Shown in pieces: positions 5,772 through 59,181 of a DNA stretch of 64,000 nt. Under the pieces are notes generated by a model that searched no databases, was not told where the DNA came from, and was given only the letters and a program-made list of their open reading frames with translations. Location of the stretch: assembly GCA_037042915.1 (NCBI GenBank), contig CM073198.1, positions 1 to 64,000 of the forward strand, in the 5' to 3' direction. This DNA is from Auricularia sp. M13 (taxonomy: Eukaryota > Basidiomycota > Agaricomycetes > Auriculariales > Auriculariaceae). The position numbers and the translations under genes were made by a program. Numbering within the stretch: position 1 is the stretch's first letter; each line of letters opens with the position of its first letter.

Positions 5772-6304
5772 CTGGCAGTTCCTCGCACACTTTCCACTAC
5801 ATTCTTTGATTCCGCGATAATACTGGCACGTATTTGCATTTCGGGAACTAATCACAGTGATATATAAGATTCAAGGATGTGTTGAACTCTGAATCTTTCG
5901 TGACATCGTCGACCTGATGTCCGGCTCGCATCCAAGTAGGATTCTGCGGTTCACTGATGCACCCGCGAGGGCATGAAGCGCGTCACCTGAGATCCTATGA
6001 AAGGTCTCATTCCTCGTGCGCAATTGCACGTCTGGCAGTCTGGAACGCTGTTCAGACGTACATGCTTCGCTGAGGGTTCGACTGTCGAGCTCCGAGTCGA
6101 GGATTCAGCCCCATCTGCGCTCTCCCCGGCTCTCCAAATGCGCTCTCGTCGACCCCAGGCCTTACAACCAGTTCCCACGAGCTCTTCATGTTGATTTTGT
6201 TTGCAAACACTCAGGAGACAGCTTTGCAGCAAACCTGGCTGGTCTGCATTGCAATCAACGGCGCATCCGGACGAGCACAAGCGCCCGTCTGAGAGAATTT
6301 TGCT

Positions 6305-6502
6305 GTGCTGCCGCCATTCCTGCAGCTGTGCTGTAAGTTCTGCTCACTGCGCAGGGTCCGCATGTCACTCGGTTGCGTAATTCTATGCTTGGAGTCGGAG
6401 CGCGAAGCGGCGACTCGTGAACAGCCGGGATCACGAGGATCTGCAGAAGCGCGCTGGGAGCGGAACTCCGGCGAGGCGCGGATTGGACCGAAAAACTCTT
6501 GA
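6305..6502 (+). CDS. Conserved 65-codon ORF G
   Basis: An ATG-to-TGA frame of 65 codons with a cysteine-rich hydrophobic start (MLPPFLQLCCKFC) and a charged second half (ESEREAATREQ). The same-length frame is kept in every unit: 16204, 24993, 33714, 42445, 51160, 54705 and 58250. Between groups A and B/C there are about eight substitutions in the first half, none in the second, and no indels. It may be a real small protein or an exon, or just a frame that survived by chance; a GTAAGT and a GCAG lie inside it. No family recognised. Confidence 0.2.
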   Translation: MLPPFLQLCCKFCSLRRVRMSLGCVILCLESEREAATREQPGSRGSAEARWERNSGEARIGPKNS

Positions 6503-6551
6503 ACCCCGACGGTCATGGTCACACATCGCGCACAGCAGCATTTGCTGCTCA

Positions 6552-6705
6552 TTTATACAGCCCACCCAGCGGGCCTCTCTTGTTCTCGATCACCCATTCC
6601 CCCGCTGTCGCCATGCTGCAACGGCGTCCGTTGTTGACACTGGCGTTGCGCGTCTCGACGACGGCACTCTTTCCCTGCCCGCCGCTCTTGCTTTCCGTGG
6701 CCTGA
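6552..6705 (+). other. TATA-like site and signal-peptide-like ORF before gene D
   Basis: TTTATAC at 6552 is followed by an ATG at 6613 with a 30-codon frame: MLQRRPLLTLALRVS, then a hydrophobic, proline-containing end, stop at 6705. The site and frame recur at the head of gene D in every unit, but in group C the frame runs differently because of a C-run change. It could be the first exon of gene D encoding a secretion or targeting peptide, or an upstream ORF. I could not splice it in frame to the repeat exons. Next come exon-like blocks at 6770, 6899-7014 and 7073-7179. Confidence 0.3.
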
Positions 6706-6898
6706 GTAGGTTCGCATTCGCTGTTTTGCTGTTCCCGGGCCATTGCTGACGGCCAATCCCGCTCAACAGTACTCGGCCGCGGTTACTCTGAAGGCGTCCA
6801 GATATTGCCGGCGTCGACGCTGTCATTGTGAGCCCGTGAGTCCAATTTTCTCTTCTCAGTCTCTTCATCCGGCTCACGCATGATGCTCCTGCGCTCAG

Positions 6899-8230
6899 AA
6901 TTGCATGCATCTGATCGCGAGGAATATCGCGCGGCATTGCCAGCGGGCTCGCCGTTATTGGCGTGCGTGACGACACACCTCTGGAACGCCATCATCGTTC
7001 TAGGCACTGAGCTGGTGAGTCCCTGTTCTAATCTCTCCGGCCTCTTACGTCGTTGACGACCTTTCCACTCAGGAATCGCATGCATCTGATCGCGAGGAAC
7101 AATGCGCGCCGACGGCGGCGAGCCCGCTTCCATCGTCGTCTGCGACGACGCGCCGTCATTGTGCTCGGCGTATGAGTTGGTGTGTGCATGCTCACAGTTC
7201 TCAGTTTTCCGCACATTGCTGACGCGCATGTCTTTTCGCAGAATGAATCGCATGCATCTGGTCGCGAGGAACATCGCATGCCAACGCCGCCGGACCCGCT
7301 TCGACCGTCGTTGCCAACAACGTATCGCACAGCGTATGAGCTGGTGAGTTTCTGCTCGAGATTCTCAGCCCGCTCTTCGTCGCTGACGCACACGGCTGTC
7401 CGCACAGCGAATCGCATGCATCTGATCGCGAGGAACATCACGCGCCGACGCCGGCGGGCTCGCTTCCGTCGTCGTCGCAGACGACGCTCCGCCATTGTTC
7501 CCAGTGTGTGTGCAGGTGAGTTTCTGTTCAGAATGCTCAGTCCTCTTCCTCGTCACTGACGCGCAACGTTGTCCGCGCAGTGAATCGCTTGAATCTGCTC
7601 GCGCGGAATGTCACTCGCAGAATCGTACAGCAGGCACGCTGTCATCGCGTGCGGCGTGGGTCGGTGAGTCCCCTGTTGCAATTCTCATCTCTTCACGTTG
7701 CTGACGCGCAAGCTTTTCCGTGCAGGGAATCGCTCGAATCTGCTCGTGAGGCACTGCATGCACCGACGCCCGAAGCAGACCCGCTGCCGTCGCGCGCGCG
7801 ACGGACGAGTCGGTGAGTCCTCGTTCTGCACCTCTCATCACCAGCAGCTGACGCGCCGGTCGTTCCGCGTAGAGAATGGCTTGAATCTGGTCGCGAGGAA
7901 CATCGCGCGCCGAGTCTCACCTAGCCCGGGCTCTCATCGCGCGCGCCGGGCTGTTATCATCGCGCGCGGCGGGATTTGGTGAGTCTCTGCACTTCGCAGT
8001 CCTTTCTCACCGTCTGACGCGCATGCCATTCCGCGCAGGGATTCGCTTGAATCTGCTCGCGGGGAACATCACGCGCCGGCGCCATGTCGAGAACACACTG
8101 GTGAGTTTCGTTCAGGTTTCATTCGTTGAGTCTGTCGCTGAAAACGCCGCCCGCAGATACAGGCGTCGCGCCCTCCATTCTCGACGACGCTCCCGGCGAC
8201 GAGCTAATCAGTTTTGTGTCGCCGCGCTGA
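6899..8230 (+). repeat. Tandem exon-intron repeats R1-R9, about 166-bp period
   Basis: Nine units begin at 6899, 7073, 7242, 7408, 7581, 7726, 7873, 8039 and 8157 (spacings 174, 169, 166, 173, 145, 147, 166, 118). R1-R8 share a core related to GAATCGCATGCATCTG followed by ATCGCGAGGAACATC; R9 keeps the spacing and intron frame but not the core. Each unit ends in GTGAGT (GTGTGT once) and, 56-65 nt later, an acceptor preceded by a GCTGACGCGC-like branch region. Both exon and intron parts are repeated, so the unit of duplication was exon plus intron. The array is present in all units of the window. Confidence 0.85.
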
Positions 8231-8689
8231 TGACATAAGTGCTTTGCAGCGCGCGCCAACTCGAGCGCACTCCAACACCGTCACCGACCACGCCGACATC
8301 GCGCACGTCGGGAACGCGCATCCGGTCGCTCCGCCCGCCGCGCGAGGTCTCCCCAACGCTGTTCCGCGCGTCCGCCGTCTGCAGCATCCCCGGCGGGCAT
8401 GGCGAATCTCTGCTCGCCGCCGCTGCGCTTTCTGGTGCACGGTCTCCCGCGTCGGCTCGCGGCCATCCGTTCATCTTTCTCCCTCCCTCTCACCCCACTC
8501 CCATCTTCGTTCGCGTGCGCCATTGACCTCGCGCCGACCCTCGCCATTCTCAGTTCGCCCGCCAGCGTGTTCCCACGTGTTCCGCCCGCGGCGGGTTGCA
8601 TCACCGAGCTCCTCTCCATCGCCCTTGCCATCGCCGCACTCGTTCTCGTCAATTTCCCGACAACACTCCTGCTCGATCATGTACATTAG
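7243..8689 (+). CDS. Repeat-exon gene D, group A copy 1
   Basis: Proposed exons: 7243-7343, 7408-7515, 7581-7663, 7726-7812, 7873-7978, 8039-8100, 8157-8210, 8250-8689 (1041 nt, 346 residues). The frame stays open through all eight. Successive repeat exons are read in two frames: one gives NRMHLVARNI-type basic peptides, the other ESHASDREEH-type peptides. The last exon is Arg/Ser/Pro-rich and ends in a hydrophobic segment (GCITELLSIALAIAALVLV) and a short tail before TAG. No family recognised. The start is uncertain: an in-frame ATG also lies 15 nt upstream in the preceding intron, and exons further 5' may exist. The last intron (39 nt, GTTTTG donor) is weak. Chance openness is not negligible, because two of the three frames are open in most repeats. 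Confidence 0.4.
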
Positions 8690-9440: not shown

Positions 9441-9444
9441 AGGG

Positions 9445-14331: not shown

Positions 14332-17142
14332 ACGTCCGTTTTGCTGCCAACGACGAGCGTGATCATTTGAGCATCGCCGCTGACGAGCACAACCGCTGAC
14401 GAGCAACACAAGCACGAGCAGCACATGCTCGAGCATCGCGTGCAACGGCGAGCACACGCGCAGGCGCATAGACATCGGTCGCGCGGCACACAGCGAGCGG
14501 GGCGGGAGGGAAGAGAGGTCGAGGAAGAGGAAGAAGGGGCGGACACTGGTGGATGACCCAGATCCTGAACGCCTTTTATACCCCTGCACCCCACCAGCGC
14601 GGCGGCCGTCTCGCAATCAATGCACAGCCCAGGCTTACGGAGCCCAGACGTACGAAGTGAGTTTGGCGAGAGAAGGGGGTGGAAGGAACGGCGCGGCTGT
14701 TGGATTCAGATCGGCCTTCGCCTCCTCACCCCGCCGCCGCGCAACGAATTTCTCGCCCGCGCGAGCACCTCACCCCCTCCCTCTTTTAAATAGGCGCCCG
14801 TGGTGGTTGAGCGACCAGACCTCAGCCATTAGGCGCCCGTCAGAGGGGGGTGTGGGCCCGCAAAATGGGAGACACCTGGAGGTCCCAGGACCTCTCTGCA
14901 CGGCCTCCCGGCGCACAAACGCACGCGATGCGCTTCCATCAGGCGTGATTGATGTCTTTAAAACGCATGATGAGCGAAAGAATTGGGGGGAAACCGCAGA
15001 ATCGTTCGGTTTCTGCGCGTACTCGCCACCGCCGACTCGCTTCCACCGCCCCAGGACTCGTTTCAATTCAATCGACTGAGTCATTGCTGCGTTAGATACG
15101 CCGCAAGAGCTGTCTAGAACAAGGCACTAAGCCGGCGCAGGTCGGGATCGTTCTCACGCGAGACGTTTCTCCTCGCGTGCCGCCGATTCAACATGATTCA
15201 GAGCCTTCGCTTCGACTATCCCAGCCCGTGCACGTCACGTCATGTTCCAAGACAGCATTACGGCGCTCATTGGCTGTGACGTCGTGCATGCGCATGATGT
15301 ACCGTTCAGGGAACTCGCTCGTCCGATTGTAACGCCTGCTCGATTCTGACTGCCCGCTGTATTTCGGAATCGCGGTGTATGCTACGCTCGATACACCGCT
15401 GAGATTAACAGTATGATCAGCTTACAAGAGTCTTTCTGAGAGTTTCACGCGTAAATCAGCCTATTTGGCCCATTTTGCATGCAGATCTAGTGCGTGCAAA
15501 GTGCGCTTTGCGTACTTTCGCACTCTCTAATGCCAAAGAACCGTTTGCTCGAAATGCACGTATACGCCAATAGTATCAATGGGCTATAGAGCCTGCGACG
15601 TTGCACATATCTCGCTTTTGTTGCGTGTGTATGCACGCAATCCTCGTGGAAGGTGCGCTTTGCGCACCTTCTGGCAGTTCCTCGCACACTTTCCACTACA
15701 TTCTTTGATTCCGCGATAATACTGGCACGTATTTGCATTTCGGGAACTAATCACAGTGATATATAAGATTCAAGGATGTGTTGAACTCTGAATCTTTCGT
15801 GACATCGTCGACCTGATGTCCGGCTCGCATCCAAGTAGGATTCTGCGGTTCACTGATGCACCCGCGAGGGCATGAAGCGCGTCACCTGAGATCCTATGAA
15901 AGGTCTCATTCCTCGTGCGCAATTGCACGTCTGGCAGTCTGGAACGCTGTTCAGACGTACATGCTTCGCTGAGGGTTCGACTGTCGAGCTCCGAGTCGAG
16001 GATTCAGCCCCATCTGCGCTCTCCCCGGCTCTCCAAATGCGCTCTCGTCGACCCCAGGCCTTACAACCAGTTCCCACGAGCTCTTCATGTTGATTTTGTT
16101 TGCAAACACTCAGGAGACAGCTTTGCAGCAAACCTGGCTGGTCTGCATTGCAATCAACGGCGCATCCGGACGAGCACAAGCGCCCGTCTGAGAGAATTTT
16201 GCTGTGCTGCCGCCATTCCTGCAGCTGTGCTGTAAGTTCTGCTCACTGCGCAGGGTCCGCATGTCACTCGGTTGCGTAATTCTATGCTTGGAGTCGGAGC
16301 GCGAAGCGGCGACTCGTGAACAGCCGGGATCACGAGGATCTGCAGAAGCGCGCTGGGAGCGGAACTCCGGCGAGGCGCGGATTGGACCGAAAAACTCTTG
16401 AACCCCGACGGTCATGGTCACACATCGCGCACAGCAGCATTTGCTGCTCATTTATACAGCCCACCCAGCGGGCCTCTCTTGTTCTCGATCACCCATTCCC
16501 CCCGCTGTCGCCATGCTGCAACGGCGTCCGTTGTTGACACTGGCGTTGCGCGTCTCGACGACGGCACTCTTTCCCTGCCCGCCGCTCTTGCTTTCCGTGG
16601 CCTGAGTAGGTTCGCATTCGCTGTTTTGCTGTTCCCGGGCCATTGCTGACGGCCAATCCCGCTCAACAGTACTCGGCCGCGGTTACTCTGAAGGCGTCCA
16701 GATATTGCCGGCGTCGACGCTGTCATTGTGAGCCCGTGAGTCCAATTTTCTCTTCTCAGTCTCTTCATCCGGCTCACGCATGATGCTCCTGCGCTCAGAA
16801 TTGCATGCATCTGATCGCGAGGAATATCGCGCGGCATTGCCAGCGGGCTCGCCGTTATTGGCGTGCGTGACGACACACCTCTGGAACGCCATCATCGTTC
16901 TAGGCACTGAGCTGGTGAGTCCCTGTTCTAATCTCTCCGGCCTCTTACGTCGTTGACGACCTTTCCACTCAGGAATCGCATGCATCTGATCGCGAGGAAC
17001 AATGCGCGCCGACGGCGGCGAGCCCGCTTCCATCGTCGTCTGCGACGACGCGCCGTCATTGTGCTCGGCGTATGAGTTGGTGTGTGCATGCTCACAGTTC
17101 TCAGTTTTCCGCACATTGCTGACGCGCATGTCTTTTCGCAGA

Positions 17143-18590
17143 ATGAATCGCATGCATCTGGTCGCGAGGAACATCGCATGCCAACGCCGCCGGACCCGCT
17201 TCGACCGTCGTTGCCAACAACGTATCGCACAGCGTATGAGCTGGTGAGTTTCTGCTCGAGATTCTCAGCCCGCTCTTCGTCGCTGACGCACACGGCTGTC
17301 CGCACAGCGAATCGCATGCATCTGATCGCGAGGAACATCACGCGCCGACGCCGGCGGGCTCGCTTCCGTCGTCGTCGCAGACGACGCTCCGCCATTGTTC
17401 CCAGTGTGTGTGCAGGTGAGTTTCTGTTCAGAATGCTCAGTCCTCTTCCTCGTCACTGACGCGCAACGTTGTCCGCGCAGTGAATCGCTTGAATCTGCTC
17501 GCGCGGAATGTCACTCGCAGAATCGTACAGCAGGCACGCTGTCATCGCGTGCGGCGTGGGTCGGTGAGTCCCCTGTTGCAATTCTCATCTCTTCACGTTG
17601 CTGACGCGCAAGCTTTTCCGTGCAGGGAATCGCTCGAATCTGCTCGTGAGGCACTGCATGCACCGACGCCCGAAGCAGACCCGCTGCCGTCGCGCGCGCG
17701 ACGGACGAGTCGGTGAGTCCTCGTTCTGCACCTCTCATCACCAGCAGCTGACGCGCCGGTCGTTCCGCGTAGAGAATGGCTTGAATCTGGTCGCGAGGAA
17801 CATCGCGCGCCGAGTCTCACCTAGCCCGGGCTCTCATCGCGCGCGCCGGGCTGTTATCATCGCGCGCGGCGGGATTTGGTGAGTCTCTGCACTTCGCAGT
17901 CCTTTCTCACCGTCTGACGCGCATGCCATTCCGCGCAGGGATTCGCTTGAATCTGCTCGCGGGGAACATCACGCGCCGGCGCCATGTCGAGAACACACTG
18001 GTGAGTTTCGTTCAGGTTTCATTCGTTGAGTCTGTCGCTGAAAACGCCGCCCGCAGATACAGGCGTCGCGCCCTCCATTCTCGACGACGCTCCCGGCGAC
18101 GAGCTAATCAGTTTTGTGTCGCCGCGCTGATGACATAAGTGCTTTGCAGCGCGCGCCAACTCGAGCGCACTCCAACACCGTCACCGACCACGCCGACATC
18201 GCGCACGTCGGGAACGCGCATCCGGTCGCTCCGCCCGCCGCGCGAGGTCTCCCCAACGCTGTTCCGCGCGTCCGCCGTCTGCAGCATCCCCGGCGGGCAT
18301 GGCGAATCTCTGCTCGCCGCCGCTGCGCTTTCTGGTGCACGGTCTCCCCGCGTCGGCTCGCGGCCATCCGTTCATCTTTCTCCCTCCCTCTCACCCCACT
18401 CCCATCTTCGTTCGCGTGCGCCATTGACCTCGCGCCGACCCTCGCCATTCTCAGTTCGCCCGCCAGCGTGTTCCCACGTGTTCCGCCCGCGGCGGGTTGC
18501 ATCACCGAGCTCCTCTCCATCGCCCTTGCCATCGCCGCACTCGTTCTCGTCAATTTCCCGACAACACTCCTGCTCGATCATGTACATTAG
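17143..18590 (+). CDS. Repeat-exon gene D, group A copy 2
   Basis: Same exon layout as the copy at 7243. One extra C in the last exon (near 18346) changes its frame. It can still be entered in frame from the preceding exon by using the donor GTGTCG, 5 nt further 3', which gives an exon end ...DELISF followed by RAPTRAHS and the same hydrophobic end. Which homopolymer call is right decides between the two splice models. Confidence 0.35.
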
Positions 18591-24442: not shown

Positions 24443-25921
24443 CTGGCAGTTCCTCACATACTGTACCTTCCACTACATTCTTTGATCCCGCGATAATTCT
24501 GGCACGTAGTTGCGTTTCTGGGGTTGCGTTTCTGGGATTAATCACAGTGATATATAAGATTTGAGGATCTGTGAAACTCTGAATCTTTCCTGATATCGTC
24601 GACCTGATGTCCGGCTCGCATCCAAGTAGGATTCTGCGGTTCACTGATGCACCCGCGAGCGCATGAAGCGCGTCAGCTGAGATCCTATTAAAGGTCTCAT
24701 TCCTCGTGCGCAATTGCACGTCTGGCAGTCTGGAACGCTGTTCAGACGTACATGCTTCGCTGAGGGTTCGACTGTCGAGCTCGGAGTCGAGGATTCAGCC
24801 CCATCTTCGCTCTCCCAGGCTCTCCAAATGCGCTCTCGTCGACCCCAGGCCTTACAACCCGTTCCCACGAGCTCTTCATGTTGATTTTTTTTGCAAACAC
24901 TCAGGAGACAGCTTTGCAGCAAACCTGGCTGGCTTGCATTGCATTCAAGGGCGGATCGACGAGCGCAAGCGCCCGTCTGAGCCGAATTTGCTATGCTGCG
25001 GCCGTTCCTGCAGCTGTGCTGTAAGTTATGCTTATCGCGCAGGGCCCGCATAACACTCAGTTGCGTAATTCTATGCTTGGAGTCGGAGCGCGAAGCGGCG
25101 ACTCGTGAACAGCCGGGATCACGAGGATCTGCAGAAGCGCGCTGGGAGCGGAACTCCGGCGAGGCGCGGATTGGACCGAAAAACTCTTGAACCCCGACGG
25201 TCATGGTTCCACATCGCGCACAGCAGCATTTGCTGCTCATTTATACAGCCCACCCAGCGGGCCTCTCTTGTTCTCGATCACCCATTCCCCCCGCTGTCGC
25301 CATGCTGCAACCGCGTCCGTTGTTGACACTGGCGTTGCGCGTCTCGACGACGGCACTCTTTCCCTGCCCGCCGCTCTTGCTTTCCGTGGCCTGAGTAGGT
25401 TCGCATTCGCTGTTTTGCTGTTCCCGGGCCATTGCTGACGGCCAATCCCGCTCAACAGTACTCGGCCGCGGTTACTCTGAAGGCGTCCAGATATTGCCGG
25501 CGTCGACGCTGTCATTGTGCGCCCGTGAGTCCAATTTTCTCTTCTCAGTCTCTTCATCCGGCTCACGCATGATGCTCCTGCGCTCAGAATTGCATGCATC
25601 TGATCGCGAGGAATATCGCGCGGCGTTGCCAGCGCGCTCGCGTGCGTGACGACGCACCTCTGGAACGCCATAGTCGTGCTAGGCACTGAGCTGGTGAGTC
25701 CCTGTTCTAATCTCTCCGGCCTCTTACGTCGTTGACGACCTTTCCACTCAGGAATCGCATGCATCTGATCGCGAGGAACATCGCGCGCCGACGGCGGCGA
25801 GCCCGCTTCCATCGTCGTCTGCGACGACGCGCCGTCATTGTGCTCGGCGTATGAGTTGGTGTGTGCATGCTCACAGTTCTCAGTTTTCCGCACATTGCTG
25901 ACGCGCATGTCTTTTCGCAGA

Positions 25922-27419
25922 ATGAATCGCATGCATCTGGTCGCGAGGAACATCGCATGCCAACGCCGCCGGACCCGCTTCGACCGTCGTTGCCAACAAC
26001 GTATCGCACAGCGTATGAGCTGGTGAGTTTTTGCTCGAGATTCTCAGCCCGCTCTTCGTCGCTGACGCACACGGCTGTCCGCGCAGCGAATCGCATGCAT
26101 CTGATCGCGAGGAAAATCACGCGCCGACGCCGGCGGGCTCGCTTTCATCGTCGTCGCAGACGACGCTCCAGTGTGTGCAGGTGAGTTTCTGTTCAGAATG
26201 CTCAGTCCTCTTCCTCGTCACTGACGCGCAACGCTGTCCGCGCAGTGAATCGCTTGAATCTGCTCGCGCGGAATGTCACTCGCACAGCAGGCACGCTCTG
26301 TTAGAACGCTGCCATCGCGCGCGGCGTGAGTTGGTGAGTCCCCTCTTGCAATGTTCATCTCTTCACGTTGCTGACGCGCAAGCTTTTCCGTGCAGGGAAT
26401 CGCTCGAATCTGCTCGCGAGGCACTGCATGCACCGACGCCTGAAGCAGACCCGCTGCCGTCATCGCGCGCGGCGGACGAGTCGGTGAGTCCTCGTTTTGC
26501 ACCTCTCATCACCAGCAGCTGACGCGCCCGTTGTTCCGCGTAAAATATGGCTTGAATCTGGTCGCGAGGAACATCGCGCGCCGAGTCTCACCTAGCCCGT
26601 GCTCTCATCGCGCGCGCCGGGCCGTTATCATCGCGCGCGGCGTGATTTGGTGAGTCTCTGCACTTCGCAGTTCTCTCTCAGCGTCTGACGCGCAGGCCAT
26701 TCCGCGCAGGGATTCGCTTGAATCTGCTCGCGGGGAACATCACGCGCCGGCGCCATGTCGAGAACACACTGGTGAGTTTCGTTCAGGTTTCATTCGTTGA
26801 GTCTGTCGCTGAAAACGCCGCCCGCAGATACAGGCGTCGCGCCCTCCATTCTCGACGACGCTCCCGGCGACGAGCTAATCAGTTTTGTGTCGCCGCGCTG
26901 ATGACATATGTGCTTTGCAGCGCGCGCCAACGCGTCTCCAGCGCATTTCAACACCGTCACCGAGCTCGCCGACATCGCGCACGCCGCGAACGCGCATCCC
27001 GTCGCTCCGCCCGCCGCGCGAGGTCTCCCCAACGCTGTTCCGCGCGTCGCCCGTCTGCGGCATCCCCGCATGGCGAATCTCTGCTCGCCGCCGCTGCGCT
27101 TTCCGGTGCACGGTCTCCCCGCGTCGGCTCGCGGCCATCCGTTCATCTTTCTCCCTCCCTCTCACCCCACTCCCATCTTCGTTCGCCATCCGAGTCCTTC
27201 GATGCGTGTGCCATTGACCTCGCGCCGACCCTCAGCATTCTCATTCCGCCCGCGGCTGAGCTCCCCTTCGCGGCGCCCGTTCTCAACGATTTTCCCGACA
27301 GCTCGATCATTGTACATTACCGCCGTGCAAAGAATATACAGTTCTTGTTGCCAAATTCGTTTGAACCGCTGAGCATCCTGAGAATGCGCAGTCTGTATGC
27401 GCATATGTTTGAACTGTGA
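25922..27419 (+). pseudogene. Repeat-exon gene D, group B copy (unit 3)
   Basis: Repeat exons R3-R6 are kept, but the acceptor of R7 has changed from GCGTAG to GCGTAAA, and R4 has lost a GT (CAGTGTGTGCAG, against CAGTGTGTGTGCAG in units 4-5), shifting the frame. The 3' end is rewritten: the hydrophobic segment is replaced by ILIPPAAELPFAAPVL and a different tail ending MFEL-stop at 27419. Part of it is open as a 233-codon frame (26718-27419). Either a different product is made or the gene is decaying. Confidence 0.35.
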
Positions 27420-32588: not shown

Positions 32589-34641
32589 ATACGCCGCTAG
32601 AGATGTCTTGGCCAATGCACGAGGCCGGCGCAGGTCGGGATCGTTCTCATGCGAGATGTTTCTCCTCGCGTTCCGCCGATTCAACATGATTCAGAGCCTT
32701 CGCTTCGACTATCCCAGCCCGTGCACGTCACGTCATGTTCCAAGACAGCATTACGGCGCTCATTGGCTGTGACGTCGTGCATGCGCATGATGTACCGTTC
32801 AGGGAACTCGCTCGTCCGATCGTAATGTCTGCTCGATTCTGACTGCCCGCTGTATTTCGGAATCGCGGTGTATGCTACGCTGGATACCCCGCTGAGATTA
32901 GCAGTATGATCACCTTAAAAGAGTCTTTCTGAGAGTTTCACGCGTACATAAGCCGATTGGCCCATTTTGCATGCAGATCTAGTGCGTGGCAAAGTGCGCT
33001 TTGCGTACTTTCGCACTCTCTAATGCCAAAGAACCGTTTGCTCGATATACACGTATACGCCAATAGTATCAATGGGCTATAGTGCCTGCGATGTAGCACA
33101 TATCTCACTTTCGTTGCGGATGTATGTACGCGGTGCTCGCGGAAGGTGCGCAAAGCGCACCTTCTGGCAGTTCCTCACATACTGTACCTTCCACTACATT
33201 CTTTGATCCCGCGATAATTCTGGCACGTAGTTGCGTTTCTGGGGTTGCGTTTCTGGGATTAATCACAGTGATATATAAGATTTGAGGATCTGTGAAACTC
33301 TGAATCTTTCCTGATATCGTCGACCTGATGTCCGGCTCGCATCCAAGTAGGATTCTGCGGTTCACTGATGCACCCGCGAGCGCATGAAGCGCGTCAGCTG
33401 AGATCCTATTAAAGGTCTCATTCCTCGTGCGCAATTGCACGTCTGGCAGTCTGGAACGCTGTTCAGACGTACATGCTTCGCTGAGGGTTCGACTGTCGAG
33501 CTCGGAGTCGAGGATTCAGCCCCATCTTCGCTCTCCCAGGCTCTCCAAATGCGCTCTCGTCGACCCCAGGCCTTACAACCCGTTCCCACGAGCTCTTCAT
33601 GTTGATTTTTTTTGCAAACACTCAGGAGACAGCTTTGCAGCAAACCTGGCTGGCTTGCATTGCATTCAAGGGCGGATCGACGAGCGCAAGCGCCCGTCTG
33701 AGCCGAATTTGCTATGCTGCGGCCGTTCCTGCAGCTGTGCTGTAAGTTATGCTTATCGCGCAGGGCCCGCATAACACTCAGTTGCGTAATTCTATGCTTG
33801 GAGTCGGAGCGCGAAGCGGCGACTCGTGAACAGCCGGGATCACGAGGATCTGCAGAAGCGCGCTGGGAGCGGAACTCCGGCGAGGCGCGGATTGGACCGA
33901 AAAACTCTTGAACCCCGACGGTCATGGTTCCACATCGCGCACAGCAGCATTTGCTGCTCATTTATACAGCCCACCCAGCGGGCCTCTCTTGTTCTCGATC
34001 ACCCATTCCCCCCGCTGTCGCCATGCTGCAACCGCGTCCGTTGTTGACACTGGCGTTGCGCGTCTCGACGACGGCACTCTTTCCCTGCCCGCCGCTCTTG
34101 CTTTCCGTGGCCTGAGTAGGTTCGCATTCGCTGTTTTGCTGTTCCCGGGCCATTGCTGACGGCCAATCCCGCTCAACAGTACTCGGCCGCGGTTACTCTG
34201 AAGGCGTCCAGATATTGCCGGCGTCGACGCTGTCATTGTGCGCCCGTGAGTCCAATTTTCTCTTCTCAGTCTCTTCATCCGGCTCACGCATGATGCTCCT
34301 GCGCTCAGAATTGCATGCATCTGATCGCGAGGAATATCGCGCGGCGTTGCCAGCGCGCTCGCGTGCGTGACGACGCACCTCTGGAACGCCATAGTCGTGC
34401 TAGGCACTGAGCTGGTGAGTCCCTGTTCTAATCTCTCCGGCCTCTTACGTCGTTGACGACCTTTCCACTCAGGAATCGCATGCATCTGATCGCGAGGAAC
34501 ATCGCGCGCGACGGCGGCGAGCCCGCTTCCATCGTCGTCTGCGACGACGCGCCGTCATTGTGCTCGGCGTATGAGTTGGTGTGTGCATGCTCACAGTTCT
34601 CAGTTTTCCGCACATTGCTGACGCGCATGTCTTTTCGCAGA

Positions 34642-36140
34642 ATGAATCGCATGCATCTGGTCGCGAGGAACATCGCATGCCAACGCCGCCGGACCCGCTT
34701 CGACCGTCGTTGCCAACAACGTATCGCACAGCGTATGAGCTGGTGAGTTTTTGCTCGAGATTCTCAGCCCGCTCTTCGTCGCTGACGCACACGGCTGTCC
34801 GCGCAGCGAATCGCATGCATCTGATCGCGAGGAAAATCACGCGCCGACGCCGGCGGGCTCGCTTTCATCGTCGTCGCAGACGACGCTCCAGTGTGTGTGC
34901 AGGTGAGTTTCTGTTCAGAATGCTCAGTCCTCTTCCTCGTCACTGACGCGCAACGCTGTCCGCGCAGTGAATCGCTTGAATCTGCTCGCGCGGAATGTCA
35001 CTCGCACAGCAGGCACGCTCTGTTAGAACGCTGCCATCGCGCGCGGCGTGAGTTGGTGAGTCCCCTCTTGCAATGTTCATCTCTTCACGTTGCTGACGCG
35101 CAAGCTTTTCCGTGCAGGGAATCGCTCGAATCTGCTCGCGAGGCACTGCATGCACCGACGCCTGAAGCAGACCCGCTGCCGTCATCGCGCGCGGCGGACG
35201 AGTCGGTGAGTCCTCGTTTTGCACCTCTCATCACCAGCAGCTGACGCGCCCGTTGTTCCGCGTAAAATATGGCTTGAATCTGGTCGCGAGGAACATCGCG
35301 CGCCGAGTCTCACCTAGCCCGTGCTCTCATCGCGCGCGCCGGGCCGTTATCATCGCGCGCGGCGTGATTTGGTGAGTCTCTGCACTTCGCAGTTCTCTCT
35401 CAGCGTCTGACGCGCAGGCCATTCCGCGCAGGGATTCGCTTGAATCTGCTCGCGGGGAACATCACGCGCCGGCGCCATGTCGAGAACACACTGGTGAGTT
35501 TCGTTCAGGTTTCATTCGTTGAGTCTGTCGCTGAAAACGCCGCCCGCAGATACAGGCGTCGCGCCCTCCATTCTCGACGACGCTCCCGGCGACGAGCTAA
35601 TCAGTTTTGTGTCGCCGCGCTGATGACATATGTGCTTTGCAGCGCGCGCCAACGCGTCTCCAGCGCATTTCAACACCGTCACCGAGCTCGCCGACATCGC
35701 GCACGCCGCGAACGCGCATCCCGTCGCTCCGCCCGCCGCGCGAGGTCTCCCCAACGCTGTTCCGCGCGTCGCCCGTCTGCGGCATCCCCGCATGGCGAAT
35801 CTCTGCTCGCCGCCGCTGCGCTTTCCGGTGCACGGTCTCCCCGCGTCGGCTCGCGGCCATCCGTTCATCTTTCTCCCTCCCTCTCACCCCACTCCCATCT
35901 TCGTTCGCCATCCGAGTCCTTCGATGCGTGTGCCATTGACCTCGCGCCGACCCTCAGCATTCTCATTCCGCCCGCGGCTGAGCTCCCCTTCGCGGCGCCC
36001 GTTCTCACGATTTTCCCGACAGCTCGATCATTGTACATTACCGCCGTGCAAAGAATATACAGTTCTTGTTGCCAAATTCGTTTGAACCGCTGAGCATCCT
36101 GAGAATGCGCAGTCTGTATGCGCATATGTTTGAACTGTGA
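34642..36140 (+). pseudogene. Repeat-exon gene D, group B copy (unit 4)
   Basis: Same lost R7 acceptor as unit 3. R4 here keeps the longer GT run. One A is missing near 36007 (CTCACGATT for CTCAACGATT), which changes the last frame. R2 lacks two bases near 34508 (GCGCGCGACGG). Confidence 0.35.
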
Positions 36141-41319: not shown

Positions 41320-43373
41320 ATACGCCGCTAGAGATGTCTTGGCCAATGCACGAGGCCGGCGCAGGTCGGGATCGTTCTCATGCGAGATGTTTCTCCTCGC
41401 GTTCCGCCGATTCAACATGATTCAGAGCCTTCGCTTCGACTATCCCAGCCCGTGCACGTCACGTCATGTTCCAAGACAGCATTACGGCGCTCATTGGCTG
41501 TGACGTCGTGCATGCGCATGATGTACCGTTCAGGGAACTCGCTCGTCCGATCGTAATGTCTGCTCGATTCTGACTGCCCGCTGTATTTCGGAATCGCGGT
41601 GTATGCTACGCTGGATACCCCGCTGAGATTAGCAGTATGATCACCTTAAAAGAGTCTTTCTGAGAGTTTCACGCGTACATAAGCCGATTGGCCCATTTTG
41701 CATGCAGATCTAGTGCGTGGCAAAGTGCGCTTTGCGTACTTTCGCACTCTCTAATGCCAAAGAACCGTTTGCTCGATATACACGTATACGCCAATAGTAT
41801 CAATGGGCTATAGTGCCTGCGATGTAGCACATATCTCACTTTCGTTGCGGATGTATGTACGCGGTGCTCGCGGAAGGTGCGCAAAGCGCACCTTCTGGCA
41901 GTTCCTCACATACTGTACCTTCCACTACATTCTTTGATCCCGCGATAATTCTGGCACGTAGTTGCGTTTCTGGGGTTGCGTTTCTGGGATTAATCACAGT
42001 GATATATAAGATTTGAGGATCTGTGAAACTCTGAATCTTTCCTGATATCGTCGACCTGATGTCCGGCTCGCATCCAAGTAGGATTCTGCGGTTCACTGAT
42101 GCACCCGCGAGCGCATGAAGCGCGTCAGCTGAGATCCTATTAAAGGTCTCATTCCTCGTGCGCAATTGCACGTCTGGCAGTCTGGAACGCTGTTCAGACG
42201 TACATGCTTCGCTGAGGGTTCGACTGTCGAGCTCGGAGTCGAGGATTCAGCCCCATCTTCGCTCTCCCAGGCTCTCCAAATGCGCTCTCGTCGACCCCAG
42301 GCCTTACAACCCGTTCCCACGAGCTCTTCATGTTGATTTTTTTTGCAAACACTCAGGAGACAGCTTTGCAGCAAACCTGGCTGGCTTGCATTGCATTCAA
42401 GGGCGGATCGACGAGCGCAAGCGCCCGTCTGAGCCGAATTTGCTATGCTGCGGCCGTTCCTGCAGCTGTGCTGTAAGTTATGCTTATCGCGCAGGGCCCG
42501 CATAACACTCAGTTGCGTAATTCTATGCTTGGAGTCGGAGCGCGAAGCGGCGACTCGTGAACAGCCGGGATCACGAGGATCTGCAGAAGCGCGCTGGGAG
42601 CGGAACTCCGGCGAGGCGCGGATTGGACCGAAAAACTCTTGAACCCCGACGGTCATGGTTCCACATCGCGCACAGCAGCATTTGCTGCTCATTTATACAG
42701 CCCACCCAGCGGGCCTCTCTTGTTCTCGATCACCCATTCCCCCCGCTGTCGCCATGCTGCAACCGCGTCCGTTGTTGACACTGGCGTTGCGCGTCTCGAC
42801 GACGGCACTCTTTCCCTGCCCGCCGCTCTTGCTTTCCGTGGCCTGAGTAGGTTCGCATTCGCTGTTTTGCTGTTCCCGGGCCATTGCTGACGGCCAATCC
42901 CGCTCAACAGTACTCGGCCGCGGTTACTCTGAAGGCGTCCAGATATTGCCGGCGTCGACGCTGTCATTGTGCGCCCGTGAGTCCAATTTTCTCTTCTCAG
43001 TCTCTTCATCCGGCTCACGCATGATGCTCCTGCGCTCAGAATTGCATGCATCTGATCGCGAGGAATATCGCGCGGCGTTGCCAGCGCGCTCGCGTGCGTG
43101 ACGACGCACCTCTGGAACGCCATAGTCGTGCTAGGCACTGAGCTGGTGAGTCCCTGTTCTAATCTCTCCGGCCTCTTACGTCGTTGACGACCTTTCCACT
43201 CAGGAATCGCATGCATCTGATCGCGAGGAACATCGCGCGCCGACGGCGGCGAGCCCGCTTCCATCGTCGTCTGCGACGACGCGCCGTCATTGTGCTCGGC
43301 GTATGAGTTGGTGTGTGCATGCTCACAGTTCTCAGTTTTCCGCACATTGCTGACGCGCATGTCTTTTCGCAGA

Positions 43374-44873
43374 ATGAATCGCATGCATCTGGTCGCGAGG
43401 AACATCGCATGCCAACGCCGCCGGACCCGCTTCGACCGTCGTTGCCAACAACGTATCGCACAGCGTATGAGCTGGTGAGTTTTTGCTCGAGATTCTCAGC
43501 CCGCTCTTCGTCGCTGACGCACACGGCTGTCCGCGCAGCGAATCGCATGCATCTGATCGCGAGGAAAATCACGCGCCGACGCCGGCGGGCTCGCTTTCAT
43601 CGTCGTCGCAGACGACGCTCCAGTGTGTGTGCAGGTGAGTTTCTGTTCAGAATGCTCAGTCCTCTTCCTCGTCACTGACGCGCAACGCTGTCCGCGCAGT
43701 GAATCGCTTGAATCTGCTCGCGCGGAATGTCACTCGCACAGCAGGCACGCTCTGTTAGAACGCTGCCATCGCGCGCGGCGTGAGTTGGTGAGTCCCCTCT
43801 TGCAATGTTCATCTCTTCACGTTGCTGACGCGCAAGCTTTTCCGTGCAGGGAATCGCTCGAATCTGCTCGCGAGGCACTGCATGCACCGACGCCTGAAGC
43901 AGACCCGCTGCCGTCATCGCGCGCGGCGGACGAGTCGGTGAGTCCTCGTTTTGCACCTCTCATCACCAGCAGCTGACGCGCCCGTTGTTCCGCGTAAAAT
44001 ATGGCTTGAATCTGGTCGCGAGGAACATCGCGCGCCGAGTCTCACCTAGCCCGTGCTCTCATCGCGCGCGCCGGGCCGTTATCATCGCGCGCGGCGTGAT
44101 TTGGTGAGTCTCTGCACTTCGCAGTTCTCTCTCAGCGTCTGACGCGCAGGCCATTCCGCGCAGGGATTCGCTTGAATCTGCTCGCGGGGAACATCACGCG
44201 CCGGCGCCATGTCGAGAACACACTGGTGAGTTTCGTTCAGGTTTCATTCGTTGAGTCTGTCGCTGAAAACGCCGCCCGCAGATACAGGCGTCGCGCCCTC
44301 CATTCTCGACGACGCTCCCGGCGACGAGCTAATCAGTTTTGTGTCGCCGCGCTGATGACATATGTGCTTTGCAGCGCGCGCCAACGCGTCTCCAGCGCAT
44401 TTCAACACCGTCACCGAGCTCGCCGACATCGCGCACGCCGCGAACGCGCATCCCGTCGCTCCGCCCGCCGCGCGAGGTCTCCCCAACGCTGTTCCGCGCG
44501 TCGCCCGTCTGCGGCATCCCCGCATGGCGAATCTCTGCTCGCCGCCGCTGCGCTTTCCGGTGCACGGTCTCCCCGCGTCGGCTCGCGGCCATCCGTTCAT
44601 CTTTCTCCCTCCCTCTCACCCCACTCCCATCTTCGTTCGCCATCCGAGTCCTTCGATGCGTGTGCCATTGACCTCGCGCCGACCCTCAGCATTCTCATTC
44701 CGCCCGCGGCTGAGCTCCCCTTCGCGGCGCCCGTTCTCAACGATTTTCCCGACAGCTCGATCATTGTACATTACCGCCGTGCAAAGAATATACAGTTCTT
44801 GTTGCCAAATTCGTTTGAACCGCTGAGCATCCTGAGAATGCGCAGTCTGTATGCGCATATGTTTGAACTGTGA
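43374..44873 (+). pseudogene. Repeat-exon gene D, group B copy (unit 5)
   Basis: R7 acceptor lost as in units 3-4, R4 frame kept, 233-codon 3' frame 44172-44873 intact. Confidence 0.35.
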
Positions 44874-49748: not shown

Positions 49749-52090
49749 GCGCCCGTGGTGGTTGAGAGACCAGCCCTCAGCCATTAGGCGCCCGTCAGAG
49801 GGGGGTGTGGGCCCGCAAAATGGGAGACACCTGGAGGTCCCAGGACCTCTCTGCACGGCCTCCCGGCGCACAAACGCACGCGATACGCTTCCATCAGGCG
49901 TGATTGATGTCTTTGAAACGCCTGATGAGCGAAAGAATTGGGGGAAACCGCAGAATCGTTCGGTTTCTGCGCGTACTCGCCACCGCCGACTCGCTTCCAC
50001 CGCCCCAGGACTCGTTTCAATTCGATCGACTGAGTCATTGCTGCGTTAGATACTCCGCTAGAGCTGTCTTGGCCAATGCACGAGGCCGGCGCAGGTCGGG
50101 ATCGTTCTCACGCGAGACGTTTCTCCTCGCCTTCCGCCGATTCAACATGATTCAGAGCCTTCGCTTCGACTATTCCAACCCGTGCACGGCACGTCATGTT
50201 CCAAGACAGCATTACGGCGCTCATTGGCTGTGACGTCGTGCATGCGCATGATGTACCGTTCAGGGAACTCGCTCGTCCGATTGTAACGCCTGCTCGATTC
50301 TGACTGCCCGCTGTATTTCGGAATCGCGGTGTATGCTACGCTCGATACCCCGCTGAGATTAACAATATGATCAGCTTACAAGAGTCTTTCTGAGAGTTTC
50401 ACGCCTAAATCAGCCTATTTGGCCCATTTTATATGCAGATCTAGTGCGTGGCAAAGTGCGCTTTGCGTACTTTCGCACTGTCTAATACCAAAGAACCGTT
50501 TGCTCGATACACACGTATAGACCGATAGTATCAATGAGCTATAGAGCCTGCAATGTACCACATATCTCACTGTTGTTGCGGGTGTATGCACGCAGTCCTC
50601 GCGGAAGGTGCGCAAAGCGCACCTTCTGGCAGTTCCTCACACACTTTCAAAGTTCCACTACATTCTTTGATCCCAGGATAACACTGGCACGTAGTTGCAT
50701 TTCTGGGACTAATCACAGTGATATATAAGATTCAAGGATGTGTTGAACTCTTTCGTGATATCGTCGACCTGATGTCCAGCTCGAATCCAAGTAGGATTCT
50801 TCGGTTCATTGATGCACCCGCGAGCGCATGAAGCGCGTCACCTGAGATCCTATGAACAGGTCTCATTCCTCGTGCGCGATTGCACGTCTGGCAGTCTGTA
50901 ACGCTGCTCAGACGTACATGCTTCGCTGAGGGTTCGACTGTCGAGCTCCCAGTCCGAGGATTCAGTCCCATCTGCGATCTCCTCGGCTCTACGAATGCGC
51001 TCCCGTCGACCCCAGGCCTTGCAACAACTTCCCACAAACTATCCATGCTGGTTTTGTTTGCAAACACTCACGAGACAGCTTTGCAGCAAACCTGGCTGGT
51101 TTGCATTGCATTCAACGGCGGATCGACGAGCGCAAGCGCCCGTCTGAGCCGAATTTGCTATGCTGCGGCCGTTCCTGCAGCTGTGCTGTAAGTTATGCTT
51201 ATCGCGCAGGGCCCGCATAACACTCAGTTGCGTAATTCTATGCTTGGAGTCGGAGCGCGAAGCGGCGACTCGTGAACAGCCGGGATCACGAGGATCTGCA
51301 GAAGCGCGCTGGGAGCGGAACTCCGGCGAGGCGCGGATTGGACCGAAAAACTCTTGAACCCCGACGGTCATGGTTCCACATCGCGCACAGCAGCATTTGC
51401 TGCTCATTTATACAGCCCACCCAGCGGGCCTCTCTTGTTCTCGATCACCCATTCCCCCCGCTGTCGCCATGCTGCAACCGCGTCCGTTGTTGACACTGGC
51501 GTTGCGCGTCTCGACGACGGCACTCTTTCCCCCTCCCCGCCGCTCTTGCTTTCCGTGGCCTGAGTAGGTCCGCATTCGCTGTTTTGCTGTTCCAGGGCCA
51601 TTGCTGACGGCCAATCCCTCTGAACAGTACTCGGCCGCGGTTACTCTGAAGGCGTGCAGATATTGCCGGCGTCGACGCTGTCATTGTGAGGCCGTGAGTC
51701 CATTTTTCTCTTCTCAGTCTCTTCATCCGGCTCACGCATGATGCTACTGCGCGCAGAATCGCATGCATCTGATCGCGAGGAACATCGCGCGGCATTGCCA
51801 GCGCGCTCGCGTGCGTGACGACACACCTCTGGAACGCCATCATCGTTCTAGGCACTGAGCTGGTGAGTCCCTGTTCTAATCTCTCCGGCATCTTACGTCG
51901 TTGACGACCTTTCCACTCAGGAATCGCATGCATCTGATCGCGAGGAACGTCGCGCGCCGACGGCGGCGAGCCCGCTTCCATCCGTCGTCTGCGACGACGC
52001 GCCGTCATTGTGCTCGGCGTATGAGTTGTGTGTGCATGCTCACAGTTCTCAGTTTTCCGCACATTGCTGACGCGCATGTCTTTTCGCAGA

Positions 52091-53234
52091 ATGAATCGCA
52101 TGCATCTGGTCGCGAGGAACATCGCATGCCAACGCCGCCGGACCCGCTTCGACCGTCGTTGCCAACAACGTATCGCACAGCGTATGAGCTGGTGAGTTTC
52201 TGCTCGAGATTCTCAGCCCGCTCTTCGTCGCTGACGCGCACGGCTGTCCGCGCAGCGAATCGCATGCATCTGATCGCGAGGAACATCACGCGCCGACGCC
52301 GGCGGGCTCGCTTCCGTCGTCGTCGCAGACGACGCTCCAGTGTGTGTGCAGGTGAGTTTCTGTTCAGAATGCTCAGTCCTCTTCCTTGTCACTGACGCGC
52401 AACGCTGTCTGCGCAGTGAATCGCTTGAATCTGCTCGCGCGGAATGTCACTCGCACAGCAGGCACGCTCTGTTAGAACGCTGCCATCGCGCGCGGCGTGA
52501 GTTGGTGAGTCCCCTCTTGCAATGTTCATCTCTTCACGTTGCTGACGCGCACGCTTTTCCGTGCAGGGAATCGCTCGAATCTGCTCGCGAGGCACTGCAT
52601 GCACCGACGCCCGAAGCAGACCCGCTGCCGTCGCGCGCGCGACGGACGAGTCGGTGAGTCCTCGTGCTGCACCTCTCATCACCAGCAGCTGACGCGCCGG
52701 TCGTTCCGCGTAGAAAATGGCTTGAATCTGGTCGCGAGGAAGCGCAGCGGCGGCGAGCAGAGATTCGCCATGCGGGGATGCCGCAGACGGGCGACGCGCA
52801 CTCCAGCATTGTCACCGACCACGCCGACATCGCGCACGTCGGGAACGCGCATCCCGTCGCTCCGCCCGCCGCGCGAGGTCTCCCCAACGCTGTTCCGCGC
52901 GTCGCCCGTCTGCGGCATCCCCGCATGGCGAATCTCTGCTCCCCGCGGCACGGTCATCCAACAGTTCTCCCCGCGTCGGTCGCCCGGACCTCCGCTCGCA
53001 TCCATCCGTTCATCTTGTCACTCCCTCTCACCCCACTCCCATCTTGGTTCGCCATCCGAGTCCTGCAATGCGTGCGCCATCGACCTCGCCATTTTCATTC
53101 CGCCCGCCGGGGCGTTCCCACGTGTTCCGCCCGCGGCGGGTTGCATCACCGAGCTCCTCTCCATCGCCCTTGCCACCGCCACACTCGTTCTCGTCAATTT
53201 CCCGACAACACTCCTGCTCGATCATGTACATTAG
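52091..53234 (+). CDS. Repeat-exon gene D, group C copy C1
   Basis: Five-exon version as described for the copy at 59182, open to TAG at 53232-53234 and ending in the hydrophobic C-terminus. Confidence 0.42.
52755..52941. repeat. 45-bp perfect inverted repeat inside gene D
   Basis: Arms 52755-52799 (GAGCAGAGATTCGCC...) and 52897-52941 (...GGCGAATCTCTGCTC) are exact reverse complements, separated by 97 bp. Copies at 56300-56344/56442-56486 and 59846-59890/59988-60032. In groups A and B only the right arm exists, so the left arm arose by an inverted duplication that replaced the end of R7, R8 and R9. Confidence 0.95.
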
Positions 53235-54663: not shown

Positions 54664-55635
54664 CGGATCGACGAGCGCAAGCGCCCGTCTGAGCCGAATT
54701 TGCTATGCTGCGGCCGTTCCTGCAGCTGTGCTGTAAGTTATGCTTATCGCGCAGGGCCCGCATAACACTCAGTTGCGTAATTCTATGCTTGGAGTCGGAG
54801 CGCGAAGCGGCGACTCGTGAACAGCCGGGATCACGAGGATCTGCAGAAGCGCGCTGGGAGCGGAACTCCGGCGAGGCGCGGATTGGACCGAAAAACTCTT
54901 GAACCCCGACGGTCATGGTTCCACATCGCGCACAGCAGCATTTGCTGCTCATTTATACAGCCCACCCAGCGGGCCTCTCTTGTTCTCGATCACCCATTCC
55001 CCCGCTGTCGCCATGCTGCAACCGCGTCCGTTGTTGACACTGGCGTTGCGCGTCTCGACGACGGCACTCTTTCCCCCTCCCCGCCGCTCTTGCTTTCCGT
55101 GGCCTGAGTAGGTCCGCATTCGCTGTTTTGCTGTTCCAGGGCCATTGCTGACGGCCAATCCCTCTGAACAGTACTCGGCCGCGGTTACTCTGAAGGCGTG
55201 CAGATATTGCCGGCGTCGACGCTGTCATTGTGAGGCCGTGAGTCCATTTTTCTCTTCTCAGTCTCTTCATCCGGCTCACGCATGATGCTACTGCGCGCAG
55301 AATCGCATGCATCTGATCGCGAGGAACATCGCGCGGCATTGCCAGCGCGCTCGCGTGCGTGACGACACACCTCTGGAACGCCATCATCGTTCTAGGCACT
55401 GAGCTGGTGAGTCCCTGTTCTAATCTCTCCGGCATCTTACGTCGTTGACGACCTTTCCACTCAGGAATCGCATGCATCTGATCGCGAGGAACGTCGCGCG
55501 CCGACGGCGGCGAGCCCGCTTCCATCCGTCGTCTGCGACGACGCGCCGTCATTGTGCTCGGCGTATGAGTTGGTGTGTGCATGCTCACAGTTCTCAGTTT
55601 TCCGCACATTGCTGACGCGCATGTCTTTTCGCAGA

Positions 55636-56779
55636 ATGAATCGCATGCATCTGGTCGCGAGGAACATCGCATGCCAACGCCGCCGGACCCGCTTCGACCG
55701 TCGTTGCCAACAACGTATCGCACAGCGTATGAGCTGGTGAGTTTCTGCTCGAGATTCTCAGCCCGCTCTTCGTCGCTGACGCGCACGGCTGTCCGCGCAG
55801 CGAATCGCATGCATCTGATCGCGAGGAACATCACGCGCCGACGCCGGCGGGCTCGCTTCCGTCGTCGTCGCAGACGACGCTCCAGTGTGTGTGCAGGTGA
55901 GTTTCTGTTCAGAATGCTCAGTCCTCTTCCTTGTCACTGACGCGCAACGCTGTCTGCGCAGTGAATCGCTTGAATCTGCTCGCGCGGAATGTCACTCGCA
56001 CAGCAGGCACGCTCTGTTAGAACGCTGCCATCGCGCGCGGCGTGAGTTGGTGAGTCCCCTCTTGCAATGTTCATCTCTTCACGTTGCTGACGCGCACGCT
56101 TTTCCGTGCAGGGAATCGCTCGAATCTGCTCGCGAGGCACTGCATGCACCGACGCCCGAAGCAGACCCGCTGCCGTCGCGCGCGCGACGGACGAGTCGGT
56201 GAGTCCTCGTGCTGCACCTCTCATCACCAGCAGCTGACGCGCCGGTCGTTCCGCGTAGAAAATGGCTTGAATCTGGTCGCGAGGAAGCGCAGCGGCGGCG
56301 AGCAGAGATTCGCCATGCGGGGATGCCGCAGACGGGCGACGCGCACTCCAGCATTGTCACCGACCACGCCGACATCGCGCACGTCGGGAACGCGCATCCC
56401 GTCGCTCCGCCCGCCGCGCGAGGTCTCCCCAACGCTGTTCCGCGCGTCGCCCGTCTGCGGCATCCCCGCATGGCGAATCTCTGCTCCCCGCGGCACGGTC
56501 ATCCAACAGTTCTCCCCGCGTCGGTCGCCCGGACCTCCGCTCGCATCCATCCGTTCATCTTGTCACTCCCTCTCACCCCACTCCCATCTTGGTTCGCCAT
56601 CCGAGTCCTGCAATGCGTGCGCCATCGACCTCGCCATTTTCATTCCGCCCGCCGGGGCGTTCCCACGTGTTCCGCCCGCGGCGGGTTGCATCACCGAGCT
56701 CCTCTCCATCGCCCTTGCCACCGCCACACTCGTTCTCGTCAATTTCCCGACAACACTCCTGCTCGATCATGTACATTAG
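55636..56779 (+). CDS. Repeat-exon gene D, group C copy C2
   Basis: Same five-exon model as 59182, shifted by 3546; open to TAG at 56777-56779. Confidence 0.42.
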
Positions 56780-58133: not shown

Positions 58134-59181
58134 TAACAATGTTATTAACAAAATGTTATTAACACGTTAATAACATGAGACCTCGTATGAGCCTTGTTAA
58201 AAACAAAACGGATCGACGAGCGCAAGCGCCCGTCTGAGCCGAATTTGCTATGCTGCGGCCGTTCCTGCAGCTGTGCTGTAAGTTATGCTTATCGCGCAGG
58301 GCCCGCATAACACTCAGTTGCGTAATTCTATGCTTGGAGTCGGAGCGCGAAGCGGCGACTCGTGAACAGCCGGGATCACGAGGATCTGCAGAAGCGCGCT
58401 GGGAGCGGAACTCCGGCGAGGCGCGGATTGGACCGAAAAACTCTTGAACCCCGACGGTCATGGTTCCACATCGCGCACAGCAGCATTTGCTGCTCATTTA
58501 TACAGCCCACCCAGCGGGCCTCTCTTGTTCTCGATCACCCATTCCCCCCGCTGTCGCCATGCTGCAACCGCGTCCGTTGTTGACACTGGCGTTGCGCGTC
58601 TCGACGACGGCACTCTTTCCCCCTCCCCGCCGCTCTTGCTTTCCGTGGCCTGAGTAGGTCCGCATTCGCTGTTTTGCTGTTCCAGGGCCATTGCTGACGG
58701 CCAATCCCTCTGAACAGTACTCGGCCGCGGTTACTCTGAAGGCGTGCAGATATTGCCGGCGTCGACGCTGTCATTGTGAGGCCGTGAGTCCATTTTTCTC
58801 TTCTCAGTCTCTTCATCCGGCTCACGCATGATGCTACTGCGCGCAGAATCGCATGCATCTGATCGCGAGGAACATCGCGCGGCATTGCCAGCGCGCTCGC
58901 GTGCGTGACGACACACCTCTGGAACGCCATCATCGTTCTAGGCACTGAGCTGGTGAGTCCCTGTTCTAATCTCTCCGGCATCTTACGTCGTTGACGACCT
59001 TTCCACTCAGGAATCGCATGCATCTGATCGCGAGGAACGTCGCGCGCCGACGGCGGCGAGCCCGCTTCCATCCGTCGTCTGCGACGACGCGCCGTCATTG
59101 TGCTCGGCGTATGAGTTGGTGTGTGCATGCTCACAGTTCTCAGTTTTCCGCACATTGCTGACGCGCATGTCTTTTCGCAGA

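Follow-up and report, generated by a model that had tools for sequence, protein, structure and literature searches.

The window analysed here, the first 64,000 nucleotides of contig 6 of Auricularia sp. M13, is made up for the most part of segments amplified in tandem, at offsets of about 9.9, 8.7 and 3.5 kb; this amplification runs to about 123 kb of the contig. The genome searched amounts to 52.1 Mb in 14 contigs. An array of short exons and introns is found in 14 copies within the first 123 kb of contig 6, where it has been amplified together with the gene PEX3. Because a match starts at base 1, the contig begins inside the amplification and the true copy number is probably higher. PEX3 itself is present in 13 copies in the tandem amplification (window positions 1-64000 and contig 6 to about 123 kb), and it is open across 798 nt of one exon in all 12 copies checked. 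The amplified DNA also includes matches to ATP synthase gamma (PF00231), among them those at window positions 9706-10408 and 61551-62253. All 13 genome matches to this profile are inside the amplification and none of them covers profile positions 1-68; a full-length ATP synthase gamma gene may be located in the unassembled part. A strong TATA box, TATAAAAG, is found at window positions 9445-9452, upstream of a 5'-truncated ATP synthase gamma fragment. Copies differ little in the region between window positions 13187 and 15387 (0.5-8.5% per 200 bases); the ORFs checked there had no clear codon periodicity, and three ORFs tried gave no Pfam match.

The 14 copies of the array define four groups, named A (two copies), B (three), C (six) and D (three). 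In copy 1, a member of group A, nucleotides 6899-8156 include eight exons of 116, 107, 102, 108, 83, 87, 106 and 62 nt with introns between them. They form a chain of units of about 160-175 bp, each composed of one exon and one intron, that belong to a common sequence family, as seen when the eight units of copy 1 were aligned. A chain of exon-plus-intron units of about 166 bp, with exon lengths of 102, 108, 83, 87, 106 and 62 nt, had been proposed in the initial annotation and is borne out: donor, branch-like site and acceptor are present in each unit and the six lengths are exact. The array had been described from nucleotide 7073; units are indeed found there, but the array starts earlier: the 102-nt exon has two units 5' of it, at 6899 and 7073. 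Two further likely exons and a TATA-like site were found upstream of nucleotide 6899. The features of copy 1 and the other copies located in the window are as follows.

6380..6612, forward strand: putative promoter and leader, with a TATA-like TTTATAC at 6552-6558
6613..6705, forward strand: putative exon 1, which holds the first ATG 3' of the TATA-like site
6770..6835, forward strand: putative exon 2, between introns 6706-6769 and 6836-6898
6899..7072, forward strand: unit 1, exon E3 (6899-7014) and intron 7015-7072; 10-nt indel between group A and groups B-D
7073..7241, forward strand: unit 2, exon E4 (7073-7179) and intron 7180-7241, donor GTGTGT
7242..7407, forward strand: unit 3, exon E5 (7242-7343) and intron 7344-7407
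7408..7580, forward strand: unit 4, exon E6 (7408-7515) and intron 7516-7580; 12-nt indel among groups
7581..7725, forward strand: unit 5, exon E7 (7581-7663) and intron 7664-7725; 5-nt indel, exon tail rearranged
7726..7872, forward strand: unit 6, exon E8 (7726-7812) and intron 7813-7872; group B without acceptor
7873..8038, forward strand: unit 7, exon E9 (7873-7978) and intron 7979-8038; largely deleted in group C
8039..8156, forward strand: unit 8, exon E10 (8039-8100) and intron 8101-8156; missing from group C
8157..8240, forward strand: putative last exon, start only; missing from group C
16799..18056, forward strand: array copy 2, group A
25588..26827 (approximate end), forward strand: array copy, group B
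34309..35549 (approximate end), forward strand: array copy, group B
43040..44281 (approximate end), forward strand: array copy, group B
51757..52741, forward strand: array copy, group C, truncated in E9
55301..56286, forward strand: array copy, group C, truncated in E9
58847..59832, forward strand: array copy, group C, truncated in E9

Copy 1 includes 10 introns of 56-65 nt each. The donor is GTGAGT in eight of them and GTAGGT and GTGTGT in the remaining two, a CTGAC branch-like site is located 23-25 nt from the 3' end in seven, and the acceptor is CAG in nine and TAG in one. The ORF of putative exon 1 reaches a stop at the final codon of the exon in groups A and B, is shifted in group C, and is open in group D, where it ends in exon 4.

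Pairwise comparison of 10 of the 14 copies showed no substitutions within groups. When the columns of all 14 copies were compared, with 60 columns at either end left out, the within-group differences amounted to 11 columns in total, all of them gaps, mostly in short base runs or GT repeats; these gaps are probably assembly errors. Divergence between groups, for which one majority sequence per group was used here and in the other group comparisons, is 4.6-6.8% of aligned sites, and the exons differ among groups by indels of 10, 12, 5 and 2 nt in addition to several of 1 nt. Divergence is uneven along the whole amplified unit: per 200 bases it ranges from 0.5% to 22%, and 14-22% is reached in several non-coding stretches.

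The distribution of the variable sites within the array is unequal. Defining the splice signals of each intron as six donor, five branch and three acceptor positions, 1 of 140 splice-signal sites is variable among groups versus 45 of 474 other intron sites (P = 9e-5); the repeat exons vary at 47 of 771 sites. After removal of CpG sites the difference persists (1/129 splice-signal versus 25/365 other intron sites, P = 0.005), while exons (27/516) and introns (25/365) do not differ from each other (P = 0.31). Random blocks of the same size placed in the same introns contained a mean of 11 variable sites, and one or fewer in 0.035% of 20,000 draws. The sole change in a splice signal among groups is found in group B, at the acceptor that precedes nucleotide 7873. 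In the putative promoter, 3 of 233 sites are variable among groups, a number that becomes 8 of 233 when the raw copies are aligned. These comparisons show that the splice signals of the array change little, and the signals appear to be protected, although exchange between units could be a cause of the sparing at positions common to all units.

A search of the genome for the pattern GTGAGT-N(15-40)-GCTGAC-N(16-22)-CAG gave 192 matches, a number that includes the array's own copies, versus 15 for the reversed pattern. On contigs 1-5 at least 73 places outside the repeat family were found among the matches listed. The excess over the reversed pattern, like that of a pattern drawn from the family's introns (22 matches versus 0), indicates that the intron architecture of the array is not due to chance; judged by this pattern, the introns are of a host type whose architecture is found genome-wide.

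Relatives of the array were found elsewhere in the genome. A degenerate array on contig 4 (3371636-3372290) is 72% identical and retains five donors and four of five acceptors recognisable by eye. In the comparison with it, 79 of 322 exon sites and 63 of 305 intron sites are different, the alignment includes frame-breaking gaps, and no clear codon periodicity was detected. A second subfamily with similar introns is present at the following locations.

Contig 7, 2765167-2766179: second subfamily, similar introns
Contig 4, 680249-681267: second subfamily, 95-98% identity to the contig 7 copy
Contig 4, 677333-678144: second subfamily, 95-98% identity to the contig 7 copy
Contig 11, 2051344-2052650: second subfamily, 95-98% identity to the contig 7 copy

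Fragments of this subfamily are found at three further places. Its splice signals are variable at 0 of 56 sites versus 13 of 191, counts that derive from four of five introns, one of them misplaced by one base and with the branch window off; without CpG sites the values for the same four introns, one misplaced, are 0/51 versus 4/138. This low variation is suggestive only. Two copies of the subfamily face each other as a palindrome in a region of contig 4 (675833-682767, loci L050 and L051), and 896 bases of these two loci match in inverted orientation, which is due to the overlap of the loci at this place.

The initial annotation had interpreted the repeats as exons translated in two alternating frames, one DNA repeat thus encoding two peptide families, NRMHLVARN-type and ESHASDREE-type (hereafter NRM and ESH), through a spliced frame open across eight exons in group A and five in group C. 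The group A chain that starts at the ATG at 7243 is open from 7242 to a stop just after 8225. It includes seven exons and not eight, because the joining of the 107-nt exon to the 102-nt exon makes a stop. The same stretch of seven exons stays open in group D, and in both groups the chain reads E5 to E10 in the NRM, ESH, ESH, NRM, NRM and ESH frames. The chain closes in the other two groups, in the fourth exon in B and in the fifth in C, the latter in agreement with the earlier count if the group labels correspond. It had been cautioned that two of three frames are open in most repeats, with a chance of openness of about one in ten. The counts agree with this: two frames are open in each of E5-E8 and E10 of group A and one in E9, from which the chance that any chain stays open across E5-E10 of this group works out at no more than about 0.13. 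Synonymous and nonsynonymous changes, the comparison suggested in the initial annotation, gave for the alternating frame values that match the neutral expectation of 27% synonymous: 8 synonymous and 12 nonsynonymous between A and D (P = 0.15), and 7 and 18 among all four groups when the rearranged tail of E7 (7616-7663) was excluded (P = 0.54). The other two frames of the chain yielded 4 and 21 (P = 0.96) and 11 and 14 (P = 0.08). That the test has power was evident from PEX3, in the same amplification, for which 13 synonymous and 4 nonsynonymous changes were counted over 798 nt (P = 4e-5) in 12 of the 13 copies, the copy at 1149, which carries an indel, being left out. Comparison of unit with unit, carried out on 7 of the 28 possible pairs, each cut to its first gap-free block, was neutral in all six frames, with 26-33 synonymous changes versus 28-31 expected. 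The alternating chain is furthermore broken between groups by the 10-, 5- and 1-nt indels and by the acceptor lost in B. A conserved reading frame is not supported by any copy-wide test of the alternating frame, and a protein read in two frames, for which the seven-exon chain open in A and D is the favourable observation, is unlikely and in our estimate very improbable.

Searches for other kinds of product were also carried out. No Pfam domain scored above the cut-off in any of 10 proposed proteins, nine of which had no match at E 0.1. An arginine-rich minus-strand ORF (7028-7552) matched REV (20.6 of 22 bits) and L38e (14.1 of 27), both below the cut-off, and these matches were taken as a reflection of composition; three solved-structure matches to the spliced ORF, the best with an E value of 0.23, were taken as noise. 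Antisense coding was rejected since the minus-strand frames are neutral between units. In the comparison among groups, with the E7 tail 7616-7663 excluded, 14 synonymous and 15 nonsynonymous changes (P = 0.013) were counted in one minus frame whose third positions are also those of the ESH frame, and 3 and 9 without CpG sites (P = 0.59). A structured RNA was likewise rejected: Rfam gave no match for the window at the gathering threshold or for 4500-10800 at E values up to 1, the consensus fold of 16 units reached -0.68 kcal/mol with eight pairs, in one of which both partners change, and all six exon or intron pieces folded were no more stable than shuffled versions (z-scores 0.08 to 1.80). As exons are not clearly above introns in conservation at non-CpG sites and no RNA structure was found, the exons give no positive sign of function as RNA.

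The reading that we prefer, with a probability of about one half, is that the array specifies a TATA-promoted transcript of duplicated exon-plus-intron cassettes. Transcription would start from the TATA-like promoter near 6552, and the transcript would consist mostly of tandemly duplicated cassettes, each with one exon and one complete spliceosomal intron. All units would be spliced, and the product would be mainly a non-coding RNA, or an RNA with an incidental short first ORF. With a donor, a branch site and an acceptor in every cassette, the array could gain, lose or resize units by unequal crossing-over while splicing is kept, and it may have grown by this process. The splice signals look protected and no frame clearly does, which makes it likelier that the array yields a spliced RNA or is a repeat gene in decay than that it is a two-frame gene. 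Set against the cassette transcript are an excess of synonymous changes in the ESH frame, the seven-exon open chain of A and D, and the lost acceptor of B.

The first of these observations leads to an alternative that we regard as less likely, namely a protein gene that reads the repeats in one ESHASDREE-type frame and is now decaying, or skips exons, with the result that the frame is no longer preserved by the exon lengths seen today. Over all exons, the changes among groups amount in the ESH frame to 16 synonymous and 15 nonsynonymous (P = 0.005, uncorrected for six frames), a count that excludes the E7 tail 7616-7663 and becomes 22 and 25 when it is included. Exon 7726-7812 alone has 6 and 0, and the variable sites are distributed over the three ESH codon positions as 9, 5 and 18 (P = 0.016). 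This excess possibly reflects a protein, extant or former, read in a single frame, and the frame does persist across some joins (E6/E7 in every group, E3/E4 in A, and E8/E9 in A, C and D). However, the excess is located for the greater part at CpG sites, where the counts are 11 and 6 (P = 0.016), and is not significant outside them, where they are 5 and 9 (P = 0.23); between units the frame is neutral, with 28 synonymous and 75 nonsynonymous changes versus 28.4 synonymous expected; and it is broken at the join of E5 to E6 in four of four groups and meets a stop within E9 in A, B and D. The ESH signal lends no support to translation in two frames, because the signal is strongest in 7726-7812, an exon through which the alternating chain passes in the other frame in groups A and D. 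An unlikely explanation is that the array is a neutral relic, a decayed exon-intron repeat that hitchhikes with the amplification of the PEX3 region and retains leftover splice sites. The degenerate and dispersed state of the relatives, the frame breaks, the acceptor lost in B and the failure to find either a domain or RNA structure are all consistent with a relic, but the scarcity of changes at the splice signals (1/140 versus 45/474), significant even without CpG sites, argues against it.

A different role was considered on the basis of a match to a Piwi-domain gene on contig 4 (2304549-2305652). An array-like piece of about 65 nt, 83% identical and with 31 nt exact, lies antisense inside this gene at 2304781-2304845 (about 4982-5046 of locus L010), in an open stretch, in frame, and right before YRDGV; a comparable segment was obtained from three of five other Piwi loci, where it is about 13 residues shorter. 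The array RNA could on this basis be imagined as an antisense or small-RNA regulator that pairs with the mRNA of the Piwi-domain gene. Such a role is most improbable: the match is a single one, the Piwi-domain match of the contig 4 gene is itself weak (28-29 bits), and part of the piece is the 3' end of an intron, which places its origin in DNA or unspliced RNA. The Piwi match is a weak lead, and the only functional one for the array. The fuller proposal, a cassette-duplicating non-coding RNA gene of at least 14 copies under selection for splicing only, which may regulate RNA silencing in trans as an antisense or small RNA through the exact 31-nt Piwi antisense match of its exon core, is highly doubtful.

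If the cassette transcript is the correct reading, protected splice signals without a protected frame would mean that selection on splicing can be separated from selection on protein, and the array would be a natural test of how exon-plus-intron cassettes multiply if splice signals alone are protected. The array also serves as a warning: in GC-rich repeats, a spliced frame that stays open is weak evidence of coding.

Many small exons are a feature of the aphid bicycle genes. They form a fast-evolving, protein-coding family recognised by gene structure and not by sequence (PMC9168663), and the array resembles them in being rapidly evolving and known by its structure; those genes encode proteins, whereas coding by the array is putative at most. 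The SP7-like effectors of arbuscular mycorrhizal fungi are secreted proteins whose repeats are hydrophilic and whose genes have a conserved intron upstream of the first repeat (PMC11333574). The array is likewise fungal, with repeats and a diagnostic intron position, but an intron accompanies every one of its repeats, and the tests do not support a conserved protein. With fungal introners and introner-like elements (PMC4457414, PMC9860276) the array shares similar spliceosomal introns in many copies. Introners are near-identical introns in unrelated genes, while the repeated unit here is an exon plus an intron (PMC4457414). Identity with introners was rejected, as the family intron pattern, searched as one exact pattern, had 22 matches versus 0, all 22 of them inside repeat-family loci (contigs 4, 6, 7 and 11) and none outside. 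A tandem exon-intron non-coding array in a fungus was not encountered among the literature matches listed, which does not prove its absence. Among the literature compared, the nearest described kind is the exon array of the Tetrahymena LRR genes, which consist of arrays of 90-bp exons with introns almost always in phase 2, the exact exon length and the near-constant phase keeping the frame (PMC6564038). Both systems have tandem small exons with introns, for which unequal crossing-over is the explanation given in Tetrahymena (PMC6564038) and a probable one here. The array differs in its exons of 62-116 nt, whose lengths are again different in groups B-D, in its mixed phase with no single frame kept, and in having no LRR or other recognisable protein (Pfam, 10 of 10 proteins below the cut-off). 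On the sequence evidence, the exon-intron chain is real and is best described as a variant of the known tandem exon array type.
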